From Moorella sp. Hama-1 (GTDB lineage: Bacteria; Bacillota; DSM-521; Neomoorellales; Neomoorellaceae), in the NCBI RefSeq assembly GCF_023734095.1, contig NZ_AP024620.1, forward strand, positions 1,546,501-1,610,500: a stretch of 64,000 bases of DNA, read 5' to 3'. Shown one piece after another: positions 3,224-31,017 of the stretch. The first letter of the stretch is position 1. Every line of letters begins with the position of its first letter. The translations under genes and the position numbers were made by a program. A model generated the notes under the pieces. That model was not told where the DNA came from, ran no database searches, and was given only the letters and a program-made list of their open reading frames with translations.

Positions 3224-3752
3224 TTTTCCTCCTCCGAAATGAGATGTGTGAGGTTGGAGGTGAGAGGTGGGAGGCTTTTCGAAACTGGCTGCGCCAGTTT
3301 CAGATTAAAGCCTTGCCTCTCATTTCTCCCGTTCGCTGGTGGAGTTTGCCCCCATTAGGGGTTCCTCCGAAAATAGGGTTCTGGCAAAAATGGATTCTTA
3401 TGGTAAGCATTTGGCTAGGGGGCTGGCGGTACAGGTCTCCAGGCTCCGTGGTTCTCGGCGAGCAAACTTGGCGCTCAGCCTTCCTCGGCGGCGGGGGTGG
3501 CTTTACATTATCTCATCAGAATAAGCGCAGCGGGGAGCGGAGCTCTTCGTTCCTCAATTTACGTTCCGATCCCCATCCCGTTCACCGCCGCCTCGCCGCG
3601 GCTTCGCTGAGTTTGCTAGCGCCTCGAACCAAGTCGCCTTCCGCCTGTATCCGCCAGCCCCTTACATCAACCAGCATTTTCCTTGTTTGCTGGAGGGAGG
3701 CGTTAGCCCCCCATGAAGGGCTCCTCCGAAAATAGGGTTCTGGCAAAAATGG
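3224..3752 (-). repeat. Dispersed leader repeat, full copy (modules A and B) before glnA
   Basis: Module A (about 3224-3393) carries the perfect 9-bp-stem hairpin at 3281-3301, CU-rich tracts, and the terminal TTTCGGAGGA that serves as the glnA ribosome binding site. Module B (about 3394-3720) is bounded by a 32-bp near-perfect direct repeat at 3362-3393 and 3721-3752. No transposase or long conserved reading frame is present. The same sequence occurs inverted at 4735-5240, so the ANTAR gene sits between inverted copies about 1 kb apart. Confidence 0.85.
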
Positions 3753-3767
3753 TTACTGCGGGAAGTA

Positions 3768-3843
3768 TAAAATAACGCCCTGAGGGGTAGAAGTAGCCTC
3801 CCCCCTTCAGGACGCCGTTGCCCTCAAGTAGCTTTCTTAAGCC
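3768..3843 (-). promoter_or_regulatory. Candidate ANTAR-responsive terminator/antiterminator upstream of glnA
   Basis: On the minus strand, stem AGGGC/GTCCT (3809-3824) closes the hexaloop AACGGC, with A at position 1 and G at position 4 as in known ANTAR targets. Five bases upstream, GGCT/AGCT (3830-3843) closes UAAGAA, which has G4 but U instead of A1, so this first loop is weaker. The 3' arm of the second stem overlaps the 5' arm of a terminator (arms 3779-3787 and 3801-3811) followed by a broken T run. The element lies after the ANTAR gene and before glnA, so it would control read-through in the operon. Confidence 0.6.
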
Positions 3844-3872: not shown

Positions 3873-4499
3873 TTATGCTTTGCCGGAATTCCCGCCGTTA
3901 CTTTTAGCCGTGAGGCTACCGTGCTGGAGTTCGTGGGCGACAATAATGGCTTCAGCGATGGTTTTCATGGGTACGCAGCGATCCATACTCTGGCGCTGCA
4001 GGCGCCGGTAGGCCTCGGCCTCCGTTAAACCCATGGTATCCATTAAAATCCCCTTGGCCCGCTCCACGACTTTGCGGGAGGCCAGGGTTTCCTTTAACTT
4101 GCTGATCTCCTGTTCCAATTGGGTTACCCGGCGATAATTGGCCAGGGCTGCTTCTACCGCCGGGATAAGGGTACTCTCCTGAACCGGTTTGATAAGATAG
4201 GCAAAAACAGGAAGATCCCGGGTGCGTATAATCAAATTCCGGCGCCAGGTAGAAGCCAGGAGGATTACCGGCGCTACCCGGTCCTCATCAATGATCCGGG
4301 CTATTTCCAGGGCGCTGGTGCCCTGGAGATCGCTATCCAGAATCACCAGACCGGGCTGCAGGGTACGGATCATTCGCAGGGCCTGGCTGCCATCCGGGGC
4401 TTCCCCGGCGATAAGGTAACCTTCGCGTACCAGCATGTACTTCAGGTTTTGCCGGGCAGACGAGTCGGCACAGGCAATAAAAATTTTGGCTTGCTGCAT
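3873..4499 (-). CDS. ANTAR-domain response regulator (RNA-binding antiterminator)
   Basis: This 208-residue protein has an N-terminal receiver domain (about 1-120) and a C-terminal ANTAR domain (about 130-192) joined by a short coiled coil. In the receiver, Asp55 (VILDSD) is the likely phosphoacceptor and Lys104 (LIKPV) the switch lysine. Only Asp12 of the usual acidic pair is kept. The ANTAR part has VVERAKGILMDTMGLTEAEAYRRL. ANTAR proteins bind paired hexaloop RNA hairpins and prevent terminator formation. Such pairs occur in its own leader and before both glnA genes, asnB and amt, so a nitrogen-control role is inferred. NitR next to glnA in Clostridium saccharobutylicum is a precedent. No cognate histidine kinase is visible. 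The start ATG at 4499 follows GAGGGGGG at a rather long distance. Confidence 0.9.
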   Translation of the reverse strand: MQQAKIFIACADSSARQNLKYMLVREGYLIAGEAPDGSQALRMIRTLQPGLVILDSDLQGTSALEIARIIDEDRVAPVILLASTWRRNLIIRTRDLPVFAYLIKPVQESTLIPAVEAALANYRRVTQLEQEISKLKETLASRKVVERAKGILMDTMGLTEAEAYRRLQRQSMDRCVPMKTIAEAIIVAHELQHGSLTAKSNGGNSGKA

Positions 4500-4524: not shown

Positions 4525-4563
4525 GCTACGTCGTTGTAGCCATGTCGAGGACGCCGTTGCCCC
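4525..4563 (-). promoter_or_regulatory. ANTAR RNA motif in the leader of the ANTAR gene itself
   Basis: On the minus strand, GGGGC/GTCCT (4548-4563, two wobble pairs) closes AACGGC. Seven bases later GCTAC/GTAGC (4525-4540, perfect) closes AACGAC. Both loops have A1 and G4. There is no T run. Instead, CCTCG in the first hairpin's 3' side could pair with CGAGG of the Shine-Dalgarno region, enclosing the second hairpin. This suggests autoregulation at translation rather than termination. Confidence 0.65.
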
Positions 4564-4734: not shown

Positions 4735-5240
4735 CCATTTTCAAGGAGCCCCTCATGGGGGCTGACGCTCCCACCACGAAGATATGAAAATATTGGTTGA
4801 GTAGAGGGCTGGCGAGTACAGGCGGAAGGCGACTTGGTTCGAGGCGTAAGCAAACTCAGCGAAGCCGCAGTGAGGCGGCGGTGAACGGGATGGGGATCGG
4901 AACGTAAATTGAGGAGCGAAGAGTTCCGCTCCTCGTTGCGCTTATTCAAAGAGATACAGCCGGGCCACCCCCGCCGCCGAGCAAGGCTGAGCGCATAGTT
5001 TGCTCGCCGAGAACCACGGAGCCTGGAGACCTGTACCGCCAGCCCCCGAGCCAAATGCTTACCACAAGAATCCATTTTTGCCAGAACCCTATTTTCGGAG
5101 GAGCCCCTCATGGGGGCAAACTCCACCAGCGAACGGGAGAAATGCGAGGTGGGCTGGCTTTAATCTGAAACTGGCGCAGCCAGTTTCGACAATCCTCCCA
5201 CCTCTCACCTCCCACATCTCATATCTCATTTCGGAGGAGG
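4735..5240 (+). repeat. Dispersed leader repeat, full inverted copy before the P-loop gene
   Basis: This copy contains modules B and A in the orientation opposite to 3224-3752. The hairpin is at 5167-5187 and the terminal TTTCGGAGGAGG at about 5229-5240 is the ribosome binding site of the P-loop gene at 5249. The left boundary direct repeat is degraded (about 4735-4760), while the internal one (about 5079-5106) is well kept. Reading frames across it are not conserved with other copies and are not taken as genes. Confidence 0.85.
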
Positions 5241-5248
5241 CTATATCA

Positions 5249-6391
5249 ATGGCCCAGGGTAAGTTGAAAAGAGTTTTCCCTGGAGGTAACACCTGCGAAG
5301 GTTTTTATTCCTTTTATGACTACATTATAGAGCCCGATGCCACGCGTATCTTTATCGCCAAGGGCGGCCCGGGGGTGGGGAAATCCACCTTTATGCGTAA
5401 AATCGGCGAGGCCATGCTCGCCCGGGGTTACGACGTCGAGTTCCATTGCTGTTCCTCGGATAATGGCTCCCTGGATGCCGTGGTGCTCCCGGCCATTAAA
5501 GTGGCCATCATCGACGGCACAGCGCCCCATGTCGTCGACCCGAGGAACCCCGGCGCCGTTGATGAGATTATTCACCTGGGTGACTACTGGGACGAGGCCC
5601 TGATGCGCGCCCACAAGGAAGAGATCCTTAAGGCCAACGCCCGGGTGGGTCGCCTCTTTCGCATTGCTTACAGCGCCCTGCGGGAGGCCAAAGTTATCCG
5701 GGACGAGTGGGAGAGTTATGTCTCAGAGTGTATGCTGGAAAGCCAGGTCAATAAAGCTGTAGCCGGTTTATTGCAGGCCATCTTCAGCGGCGTCGCCCCC
5801 CGCTATGACCGGTCGGCTAAGATACGCCATCTCTTTGCTACGGCTATTACCCCCGATGGGATCATCACCGGCCACGTAGAGTCCCTGCTCCAGGATGTCC
5901 AGCAGCTCTACACATTAGCCGGGGAGCCGGGGAGCGGGGTGCCCCAGGTCCTGGGACGGATAGCCGATCTCGCCCATGAAAAGGGCCTGCATACGGAGGT
6001 TTATCACTGCCCCTTTAATCCTAAGAATATTGACCTGGTAATCATGCCGGAGATCAAGGTGGCAGCCATGAATGTCCAGCCGCCCCATACTTATGACCCT
6101 TCTTCCCTGCCGGACCTGACGGCCATGAAACTCAATCTGTCTACCTTTATCGACCGGGATAAACTGGCTGTCTACGCCCACGAACTCAGCAGCGCCGCCT
6201 ACCGCTACCAGGCCTGCCTGGACCGGGCCGTGGCCTACATTCGCCAGGCCAAGCTGACCCACGATTACATGGAAAACTTCTATATCCCGGCCATGAACTT
6301 CGAGGCTATAAACGCCAAACGCCAGGAAATCCTGCAGCGCATCCTGAACTACGCTGCCGAATTTCCCGGCGTTCTCGATGAAGCCAGTTAA
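5249..6391 (+). CDS. P-loop ATPase-like protein with duplicated, decayed second half
   Basis: This 380-residue protein begins at the ATG at 5249 (MAQGKLKRVFPGG), behind GGAGGAGG from the repeat. The N-terminal half has a Walker A motif GGPGVGKST (about residues 38-46) and then EFHCCSSDNGSLDAVVLPAI. The C-terminal half looks like a duplicate: GEPGSGVPQ stands where the P-loop should be, followed by EVYHCPFNPKNIDLVIMPEI. The second P-loop lacks the Lys-Ser/Thr pair, so it probably does not bind nucleotide. It resembles a conserved uncharacterised ATPase family of Firmicutes. Its position between two glnA genes suggests, but does not show, a link to nitrogen metabolism. The longer frame from about 5000 lies inside the repeat and is not used. 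Confidence 0.85.
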   Translation: MAQGKLKRVFPGGNTCEGFYSFYDYIIEPDATRIFIAKGGPGVGKSTFMRKIGEAMLARGYDVEFHCCSSDNGSLDAVVLPAIKVAIIDGTAPHVVDPRNPGAVDEIIHLGDYWDEALMRAHKEEILKANARVGRLFRIAYSALREAKVIRDEWESYVSECMLESQVNKAVAGLLQAIFSGVAPRYDRSAKIRHLFATAITPDGIITGHVESLLQDVQQLYTLAGEPGSGVPQVLGRIADLAHEKGLHTEVYHCPFNPKNIDLVIMPEIKVAAMNVQPPHTYDPSSLPDLTAMKLNLSTFIDRDKLAVYAHELSSAAYRYQACLDRAVAYIRQAKLTHDYMENFYIPAMNFEAINAKRQEILQRILNYAAEFPGVLDEAS

Positions 6392-6410: not shown

Positions 6411-7742
6411 TTAAAACATAGTCAAGTATTGCTGTACTTCCCAGGGATGAACCTGGAGACGGTACTCATCCCATTCCTTCTGTTTGGCTTCGACAAAACG
6501 TTCGTAAATATGCTCGCCCAGGGCTTCCCGGATAACCTGGTCCCCGGCCAGTTCCGCCAGGGCTTCCTTTAAATCCCCGGGCAGGCTGCCGATGCCCAGG
6601 TCGCGGCGTTCCGCGGCAGTCATTTCGTAGATATTACGTTCAGTGGGAGCCGGGGGCTGGATCTTATTTTTAATCCCGTCCAACCCGGCTTTGAGCATTA
6701 CGGCCAGGGCCAGGTAGGGGTTGCAGGCCGGGTCGGGATTGCGTAATTCTATTCTAGTTGAGGCCCCGCGCTTGGCCGGTACGCGAATCAAGGGGCTGCG
6801 ATTGCGGGGGGACCAGGCGATATATACCGGGGCCTCAAAACCTGGTACCAGGCGTTTGTAAGAATTGATAGTTGGGTTGGTAATGGCGACCATGGCCCGG
6901 GCGTGGCGCATCAGGCCACCAATATAGTGGTAAGTCACCTCGCTTAGCTGCAGGGGTGCCTCTGGGTCGTAAAAAGCATTCTTCCCGTCTTTAAATAATG
7001 ATTGGTTGGTATGCATGCCCGAACCGTTGATCCCGGCAACTGGTTTGGGCATGAAGGTGGCATGCAGGCCATGGCGCTGGGCAATGGTACGGACGACGAA
7101 TTTGAAGGTGGCTATCTTGTCGGCTGTGGCCAGGGCGTTATCATATTTGAAGTCAATCTCGTGCTGACCGGGAGCCACTTCATGGTGGGAGGCTTCAATC
7201 TCAAAGCCCATGGCCTCCAGGGAGAGGACCATATCCCGGCGGGCGTCTTCTCCCAGATCGACTGGCGACAGGTCGAAGTAACCGGCCTGGTCCTGGGTTT
7301 CCAGGGTTGGGTTTTTACCGTCGGTGTGAAAGAGGAAAAACTCCGCCTCCGGGCCGGCATACATGGTATAGCCCATGGCCTCAGCTTCAGCCAGGGCCTT
7401 TTTCAGAACTCCCCGGGGGCAGCCGGCAAAGGGGGTGCCGTCGGGGTTATAAACGTCACAGATTAGCCGGGCTACGGCCCCGTCCATGGGCCGCCAGGGG
7501 AAAATGGCGAAGGTAGACGGGTCAGGCCGCAGGTACATGTCGGATTCCTCGATGCGAACGAAACCGTGGATGGAAGAGCCATCGAACATTAATTCCCCGT
7601 CCAGGGCTTTCTCTAATTCGGCCGGGGTTATGGCCACGTTTTTGAGCACCCCGAAGATATCGGTGAATTGGAGCCGGATAAAACGGACATTCATTTCTTT
7701 GACACGTTGCAGGACGTCTTCTTTGGTCAACTGCTCGTTCAT
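6411..7742 (-). CDS. glnA: Glutamine synthetase type I (second copy)
   Basis: This 443-residue paralogue of the glnA at 1884-3218 has all the same hallmarks: [49 protein letters not shown] and [12 protein letters not shown]. The start is the ATG at 7742 ([10 protein letters not shown]), behind GGAGGGACAAAAA. An in-frame ATG at 7877 lies inside the transcribed leader, over the promoter and terminator, and is rejected. It has its own promoter, an ANTAR motif and a terminator, so it is a single-gene unit. It converges with the P-loop gene, with only 19 bases between the stops. Two near-identical GSI-alpha enzymes with the same kind of control suggest recent duplication. Confidence 0.96.
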
Positions 7743-7765: not shown

Positions 7766-7810
7766 TAGAAAAGCCCGCCCCGGCTACAATCCCTGTAGCT
7801 GGAGCGGGCT
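7766..7810 (-). terminator. Leader terminator of the second glnA
   Basis: A GC-rich hairpin on the minus strand (AGCCCGCTCC...GGGGCGGGCT, with GCTACA/TGTAGC extending it inward) is followed by TTTTCT. Its 5' arm shares GCCCG with the second ANTAR hairpin at 7805-7820, so the two structures exclude each other. Confidence 0.85.
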
Positions 7811-7844
7811 TCTTTGCCCGTGTGGTGGGAACGACCTTGCTCCC
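7805..7844 (-). promoter_or_regulatory. ANTAR RNA motif in the leader of the second glnA
   Basis: On the minus strand, GGGAGC/GTTCCC (7827-7844) closes AAGGTC, and after six bases CGGGC/GCCCG (7805-7820) closes AAAGAA. Both hexaloops have A1 and G4. The second stem overlaps the terminator, which matches the established ANTAR antitermination arrangement. This is the cleanest example in the window. Confidence 0.8.
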
Positions 7845-7875: not shown

Positions 7876-7903
7876 ATTATAACATACTCTTACTGGCCGT
7901 CAA
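7876..7903 (-). promoter_or_regulatory. Promoter of the second glnA
   Basis: The minus strand has TTGACG (7898-7903), a 16-base spacer and TATAAT (7876-7881), about 30 bases before the first ANTAR hairpin. The DUF1614 gene starts divergently at 7953. Confidence 0.75.
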
Positions 7904-8624: not shown

Positions 8625-8745
8625 AACTATAAAAATATAGGTTGCGGCAAGGGACTGGGTTACAGGCGAAGGGCGACTTGGTTCGAGACGTAAGTAAACT
8701 CAGCGAAGCCGTAGAGAAGCGGCGGTGAACGGGATTAGGAAACGT
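8625..8745 (+). repeat. Dispersed repeat, fragment of module B
   Basis: This degraded piece of module B reads in the same sense as 4735-5240. Recognisable blocks are CGACTTGGTTCGAGACG, AACTCAGCGAAGCCG and CGGCGGTGAACGGGAT. It lies in the asnB leader region and lacks module A and the Shine-Dalgarno end. Confidence 0.7.
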
Positions 8746-8800: not shown

Positions 8801-8847
8801 TGCAAAAGGGGTTGCAAGGGCGTGACCCCGGTGGGCAACGGCGTCCG
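8801..8847 (+). promoter_or_regulatory. Candidate ANTAR RNA motif in the asnB leader
   Basis: TGCAA/TTGCA (8801-8816, perfect) closes AAGGGG, and GGGC/GTCC (8833-8846, extendable by a wobble pair) closes AACGGC. Both loops have A1 and G4. The linker of about 16 bases is longer than in the other leaders here. No T-rich terminator follows. A later hairpin GGCAT/ATGCC just before the GGGGGG ribosome binding site holds CTCC in its loop, so control may be on translation. Confidence 0.55.
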
Positions 8848-10773: not shown

Positions 10774-10801
10774 TTGACAACCGGCGGGGTAACAGTATAA
10801 T
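10774..10801 (+). promoter_or_regulatory. Promoter of amt
   Basis: TTGACA at 10774-10779, a 16-base spacer and TATAAT at 10796-10801 form a near-consensus vegetative promoter. It begins a leader of about 300 bases before amt. Confidence 0.85.
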
Positions 10802-10810
10802 TAATTTAAA

Positions 10811-10848
10811 GCAAGCAAGGTTGTTTGCACAAGCGGGTAATGAGGCCC
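10811..10848 (+). promoter_or_regulatory. ANTAR RNA motif in the amt leader
   Basis: GCAAGC/GTTTGC (10811-10828) closes AAGGTT, and after six bases GGGT/GCCC (10835-10848, with a closing wobble pair) closes AATGAG. Both hexaloops have A1 and G4. The 3' arm of the second stem overlaps the terminator arm starting at 10845, so protein binding would release transcription into amt-PII. Confidence 0.75.
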
Positions 10849-10881
10849 CCGTACCACATCAGGTACGGGGGCTTCTCTTTT
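10845..10881 (+). terminator. Leader terminator of amt
   Basis: A perfect 11-bp stem GCCCCCGTACC/GGTACGGGGGC (10845-10855 with 10862-10872) is followed by CTTCTCTTTT. It lies 240 bases before amt and is therefore a leader terminator, not the end of asnB, which has its stop before the promoter. Confidence 0.9.
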
Positions 10882-10942: not shown

Positions 10943-11115
10943 AGGTGGTGATGCCATCGTCAATTTAACCGGCGTCCGTTCATTTTATCTCCTTGTCCGG
11001 GGTTTCCGGCAAAAACTTTCTCACCTTCCCATAACCGCACACCGCGCCGGGAAACCCCATCTTTCATTTTTGTGGGCAATGCCGTCCAAATATTTTCTCA
11101 GAAGGAGGCTCCCAC

Positions 11116-30892: not shown

Positions 30893-30900
30893 TTACCCCC

Positions 30901-31017
30901 CTTATCTCTCAGGGCTTTTTAGCCCTGCAGGAATTGGCACCTGTCGCCCCCGAAAAACCGGGACAGCGGGTTGCCGGGCTTCATCGGGCCAGTCCCTCCA
31001 CCGCTCTTGATAAGAGT
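30901..31017 (-). ncRNA. SAM-I (S-box) riboswitch aptamer
   Basis: On the minus strand the sequence matches the S-box core: CTTATC (P1 5' side), AGAGCGGTGGAGGGACTGGC, CCGATGAAGCCCGGCAACC, GGTGCCAATTCCTGCAG and GAGATAAGG (P1 3' side). It precedes a terminator and metY-metX-hom-thrC. By family knowledge it binds S-adenosylmethionine and represses the downstream genes. Confidence 0.96.

Follow-up and report, generated by a model that had tools for sequence, protein, structure and literature searches.

The leader of glnA2, the second glnA gene in the 64,000-nucleotide stretch of Moorella sp. Hama-1 DNA analysed here (the window), is with high probability an ANTAR-target transcription attenuator, at which read-through would be permitted by the active form of the ANTAR protein encoded at 3873-4499 on the minus strand. 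The leader is one of a small group of nitrogen-gene sites which this protein, the sole one of its kind in the genome, apparently controls as a regulon. The parts of the leader, their recurrence before other nitrogen genes and the regulator itself are taken up below, together with other readings of the same DNA.

Anatomy and folding of the glnA2 leader

In the order of transcription, the leader and its gene consist of the following parts.

7876-7903, minus strand: sigma-A-type promoter of glnA2, TTGACG-N16-TATAAT (11/12 in a consensus scan, with TG before the -10 box)
7827-7844, minus strand: hairpin P1, GGGAGC-AAGGTC-GTTCCC, six pairs of which one is G-U (sequence, fold, and a covariance-model match of 49.7 bits as a seed member)
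7826-7821, minus strand: P1-P2 linker ACCACA, 6 nt (sequence)
7805-7820, minus strand: hairpin P2, the antiterminator hairpin, CGGGC-AAAGAA-GCCCG, five pairs, all Watson-Crick (sequence, stepwise folding, covariance model)
about 7769-7813, minus strand: stem of an intrinsic terminator, -33.2 kcal/mol in the fold, its U-tract reaching about 7767 (pairing kept with compensatory changes across Moorella)
6411-7742, minus strand: glnA2, type I glutamine synthetase of 443 aa, coding start ATG 7742 (NCBIfam TIGR00653 above cut-off; Pfam)

The sequence GCCCG at 7809-7805 is at the same time the 3' arm of P2 and part of the 5' arm of the terminator, and the two folds are therefore mutually exclusive. 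The -10 box ends at 7876, 31 bases upstream of P1. This anatomy and the mutual exclusion of the folds can be regarded as established, and they bear out the initial annotation, which had described two hairpins with a six-base linker, a strong terminator downstream sharing one arm with the second hairpin, and a promoter about 30 bases upstream. The listed open reading frame 7877-6411 was rejected as glnA2 from its first codon, since its ATG overlaps the -10 box. As the sole frame spanning the leader begins within that box, it would be untranslated from the glnA2 promoter, and a leader peptide is rejected for the same reason.

An ANTAR-target RNA has two stems, each 3 bp or longer, with a variable linker between them; in the glnA2 leader the stems are of 6 bp and 5 bp and the linker is of 6 nt. 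The first base of both its hexaloops, AAGGTC and AAAGAA, is A and the fourth is G (A1 and G4). The remaining sequence features of the terminator type are also found: a terminator overlapping P2, an ANTAR protein encoded in the genome, and compensatory changes in relatives.

When the full leader segment is folded freely, P1 and the terminator form (-43.9 kcal/mol, z = -5.8), with a stability reached by none of 200 shuffles. In stepwise folding of the growing transcript, P1 and P2 are formed around 66-69 nt, while the terminator appears from about 96 nt, and the interval between the two events would be a kinetic window open to the action of a protein.

Recurrence of the element and rival explanations

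Are the two small hairpins just incidental neighbours of a terminator? A constitutive attenuator, in which the terminator simply fixes a low level of glnA2, agrees with the great stability of the terminator (-33.2 kcal/mol), which wins equilibrium folding; the calculated thermodynamics of the protein-free RNA would strongly favour the terminator, and we count this against the ANTAR reading. However, A1/G4 hexaloops, P1, P2 and terminator in this order, and the overlap are found again in front of different genes and in different genera, and the chance expectation is 0.01 per strand. This figure comes from a motif scan for two A..G.. hexaloop hairpins with stems of at least 4 bp, a linker of up to 30 and an overlapping terminator. 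It found the arrangement at two places in the 64 kb, before glnA2 and before amtB-glnB (10811-10848), against a mean of 0.01 for each strand over 100 shuffles from a first-order Markov (dinucleotide-based) model, by which a chance origin is rejected. Applied to 80 public-genome loci surrounding the closest glnA relatives, the same scan gave 14 dual-plus-terminator matches, mostly directly 5' of glnA genes of Moorella, Desulfotomaculum, Desulforudis, Heliophilum and Dethiobacter, versus 1 in an equally large shuffled set. A constitutive attenuator is thus a very improbable explanation.

A covariance model was also built from seven sequences, including the glnA2 and amtB leaders of the window as seed members, and a search of 49 relative loci returned 42 matches at E up to 5. 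In the alignment of these 42 matches, 79 cells were changed on both sides as compared with a shuffled mean of 21.6 and 94.7% of cells were paired, counts which lean towards the structure because the alignment is fitted to that of the model and includes the seed and some weak matches. Shifting the pairing partners abolishes the signal, and the motif scan of the glnA loci is independent of this fitting bias. G4 of the six-base loops is found in 34/36 sequences for P1 and 37/37 for P2, and A1 in 30/36 and 32/37, respectively. The glnA2 leader itself is present in 8 of 11 Moorella genomes. Its P1 is invariant within the genus and therefore gives no covariation there, and it is the terminator that has the compensatory changes. 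Comparison of eight Moorella glnA2 leaders showed a similar promoter upstream of every one; the distance from its -10 box to P1 is 14 nt in genome G004 and 27-37 nt in the other seven. The arrangement of dual hairpin and terminator before glnA or amtB is seen in the majority of Moorella genomes and also in Clostridia further removed, and the conservation and covariation of the leader can likewise be regarded as established.

Another Moorella genome carries a full ANTAR leader with promoter, P1, P2 and terminator before a 449-aa protein (L118, G001:C1:735755-735787, minus strand).

The position before a nitrogen gene and the mutually exclusive terminator and antiterminator would also suit a switch without protein, whether a T-box or a riboswitch for a metabolite such as glutamine. 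But the glnA2 leader has no Rfam match at the gathering score and none at E up to 1, for which reason a riboswitch or T-box identity was rejected; besides, a dual hairpin of 40 nt that lacks a conserved junction falls short of the usual aptamer size, and it matches the full ANTAR consensus. We hold this explanation to be even more improbable than the constitutive attenuator.

The ANTAR regulator and its candidate sites

What, then, would act on the leader as an ANTAR-target attenuator? The initial annotation, which read it as an antiterminator before the second glnA, left the regulator unnamed, and it is very probably the product of the window's own ANTAR gene. The antiterminator reading itself is supported by every sequence-level feature of ANTAR targets, by the homologous leaders and their covariation, by the amtB-glnB copy, and by the single ANTAR protein of the genome. 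The last point is established: a search of the genome found exactly one PF03861 (ANTAR-domain) protein, whose gene lies 3 kb from the glnA2 leader. That some other antiterminator protein, of LicT/BglG type or a P-II-linked factor, binds the leader and leaves the ANTAR protein to other RNAs is as improbable as a riboswitch, because this sole ANTAR gene has hexaloop sites on both its sides and the loops match the A1/G4 code of ANTAR targets exactly, whereas proteins of the LicT/BglG type recognize one longer hairpin.

The regulator and the further sites are listed below.

3873-4499, minus strand: ANTAR response regulator, the presumed trans-acting partner (Pfam ANTAR, E 8e-23, and Response_reg)
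4525-4562, minus strand: pair of hexaloop hairpins, GGGC-AACGGC-GTCC and GCTAC-AACGAC-GTAGC, in the 5' UTR of the ANTAR gene, a candidate autoregulatory site (motif scan)
3774-3823, minus strand: lone hexaloop hairpin, GGGC-AACGGC-GTCC (3823-3810), that overlaps a terminator, in the interval from the ANTAR gene to glnA1
10774-10801, plus strand: amtB-glnB promoter TTGACA-N16-TATAAT (12/12 in a consensus scan)
10811-10848, plus strand: second full ANTAR element, GCAAGC-AAGGTT-GTTTGC, a 6-nt linker and GGGT-AATGAG-GCCC (motif scan; covariance model, 45 bits, seed member)
10842-10875, plus strand: terminator of the amtB leader, having the 3' arm of P2 in common (fold, z = -6.7)
8810-8847, plus strand: weaker dual element before asnB (covariance model, 21.6 bits, E 0.003 in the window, not a seed member)
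556271-556306 of the same genome (L096): nifH leader with promoter, P1 AGATAC-AGGGTT-GTATCT, P2 with G at loop position 1, and terminator (22.8 bits)

At least one ANTAR protein is found in 10 of 11 Moorella genomes, with a second match below the family cut-off in two of the ten; the eleventh genome, without a match, is 58% complete. Among 22 genomes of the class, covariance-model matches at E<=0.01 occur in 10 of the 18 with an ANTAR gene versus none of the four without, by itself a weak comparison, of few genomes (Fisher p about 0.07); genome G008 has an ANTAR gene and no match. The solved structures closest to the regulator are those of Rv1626 and E. faecalis EutV. In a gap-free alignment to both, the receiver of the Moorella protein retains the phospho-Asp and the Lys, has Cys-Ala in place of the acidic pair, and has Ala at the switch position, so that the set of a EutV-type phosphorylation-activated receiver (acidic pair, phospho-Asp, switch Ser/Thr, Lys) is incomplete in it. 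The loss of the acidic pair is common to Moorella ANTAR proteins and makes classical phosphorylation of the regulator doubtful; by analogy with AmiR, gating by a partner protein is more likely. Many of the glnA-linked ANTAR proteins compared from other Clostridia have degenerate receivers, too.

From these parts the following course of events can be proposed. RNA polymerase would start about 25 nt upstream of P1. Without active ANTAR protein, the nascent RNA would proceed to the terminator fold, and transcription would halt before glnA2. Active ANTAR protein would instead grip the hexaloops via A1 and G4 and keep P2 closed, holding GCCCG out of the terminator; the terminator would be prevented, and polymerase might read on into glnA2. 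The geometry of the leader points to activation rather than repression, and the identity of the downstream genes suggests nitrogen shortage as the signal. The amtB-glnB leader would act in the same way as that of glnA2, and thus ammonium uptake and one glutamine synthetase would rise together, presumably under nitrogen shortage. A single hexaloop hairpin, GGGC-AATGCC-GTCC (11074-11087, plus strand), is also seen about 30 bases 5' of the amtB start, and also in M. thermoacetica DSM 21394.

The sites on the two sides of the ANTAR gene differ in kind from these leaders. The hairpins in its own 5' UTR adjoin a purine-rich stretch before ATG 4499 and have no terminator; the dual hairpin is kept with all pairs preserved in the 11 leaders compared, two of them from outside the genus. 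They are compatible with autoregulation, possibly of translation. An anti-Shine-Dalgarno pairing might take part in it: such pairing can be drawn in most of the sequences, which singly are mostly no better than shuffles (p 0.02 to 0.6). Before glnA1, a full dual site was rejected, a single A..G.. hexaloop hairpin being conserved there: its sequence is identical in 10 of 10 Moorella genomes, none of which has an A..G.. hexaloop hairpin upstream of it, and the window shows no convincing P1 there.

The dual element before asnB is kept in the relatives L014, L112 and L114. It has no U-tract terminator and therefore, if functional, would work differently, perhaps on translation. A sigma-54 promoter before asnB is not claimed, as the spacing is one base shorter than the consensus. 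The 14-mer GGGCAACGGCGTCC has three copies in the 3.3-Mb genome, all of them in the window, before asnB, glnA1 and the ANTAR gene. Further genome copies of GGGCAA.G..GTCC (L144, L145, L146, L151, L152) show no leader context and are taken as chance, as is a covariance-model match in the same genome beside a xanthine dehydrogenase-like gene (L097), since no gene follows it on that strand. The region of the nifH leader (L096 1501-1740, genome 556271 onwards) apparently has two further terminators in series before nifH. The genome-wide search with the covariance model was limited to 150 scored candidates in each genome and did not return the asnB site, and so the list of the regulon may be incomplete.

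The window contains other elements as well. A dispersed intergenic repeat of about 360-500 bp, without Rfam match, is found in the window at 3228-3757 (minus strand), 4744-5240 (plus strand) and, in part, 8640-8740 (plus strand). It has at least 40 copies on both strands of the genome, and fewer, more diverged ones (1-18 found) in 9 of 10 other Moorella genomes. One copy separates glnA1 from the ANTAR gene and its attenuator; M. thermoacetica DSM 21394 has no copy at this place. Between the ANTAR gene and glnA2 there is a P-loop ATPase gene of the PRK06851 group (below the NCBI cut-off; 5249-6391, plus strand), which neighbours glnA also in M. thermoacetica DSM 21394 and, as far as the upstream reading frame tells, in M. 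sulfitireducens. An ordinary SAM riboswitch (RF00162, 90.8 bits) is at 30899-31016 on the minus strand.

It might be possible, though we consider it rather doubtful as a whole, that the lone Moorella ANTAR protein governs a nitrogen regulon that limits or amplifies itself, through three kinds of sites: full dual attenuators at glnA2, amtB-glnB and probably nifH; a dual hairpin beside the Shine-Dalgarno sequence of the ANTAR gene itself, one arm of P1 pairing alternatively with that sequence; and a single-hexaloop attenuator at glnA1. The pseudo-receiver would in that case be switched by a protein or a ligand and not by a kinase. The chief value of the locus is as a compact model, in which a single ANTAR protein and a few candidate sites lie together within 7 kb. 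The glnA1 site would test whether one hexaloop can antiterminate, and the locus would allow tests of ANTAR self-control of translation and of the switching of a receiver without acidic pair. Moorella species are acetogens used for gas fermentation, and control of their nitrogen uptake is therefore of practical interest as well.

Comparison with known ANTAR systems

ANTAR-target RNAs before genes for glutamine synthase, ammonium transporter, P-II and nitrogenase were described by Ramesh et al. (2012; PMC3369931), in whose work the E. faecalis eut leaders are bound by EutV and the leaders before nitrogen genes are predicted. The glnA2 leader is like these RNAs in its two short stems, A1/G4 hexaloops, short linker, terminator overlapping P2 and nitrogen gene downstream. 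Moorella is unmentioned in the main text of that paper, whose supplementary hit tables may already list the glnA2 leader; the leader adds one well-supported case to the known class. In the published EutV model, the hexaloops are bound by active ANTAR protein, which keeps P2 in place and blocks the terminator (PMC3369931). The EutV receiver has its acidic pair intact, whereas that of the Moorella protein has lost it. A structure paper of 2022 on EutV proposed that one hexaloop is the least that binding requires, P1 nonetheless being needed for antitermination in vivo.

With the Klebsiella nasF leader and NasR, the glnA2 leader has in common the A1/G4 hexaloop code, the terminal C:G closing pair, which is a preference of NasR, and, as predicted for it, antitermination of a nitrogen operon. 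NasR, however, is a one-component nitrate sensor with a NIT domain, while the Moorella regulator is a receiver-ANTAR protein. As to its receiver, AmiR-AmiC of Pseudomonas is a closer parallel: the pseudo-receiver of AmiR is not driven by a classical kinase, and the degenerate Moorella receiver suggests likewise, although the target genes of the two systems differ. In actinobacteria, ANTAR RNAs are dual hairpins without terminator near the start codon, and are taken to act on translation (PMC8164766); ANTAR RNAs near ribosome binding sites had already been noted by Ramesh et al. (2012; PMC3369931). The ANTAR gene's own leader resembles these actinobacterial RNAs, while the glnA2 and amtB leaders are of the terminator type instead.
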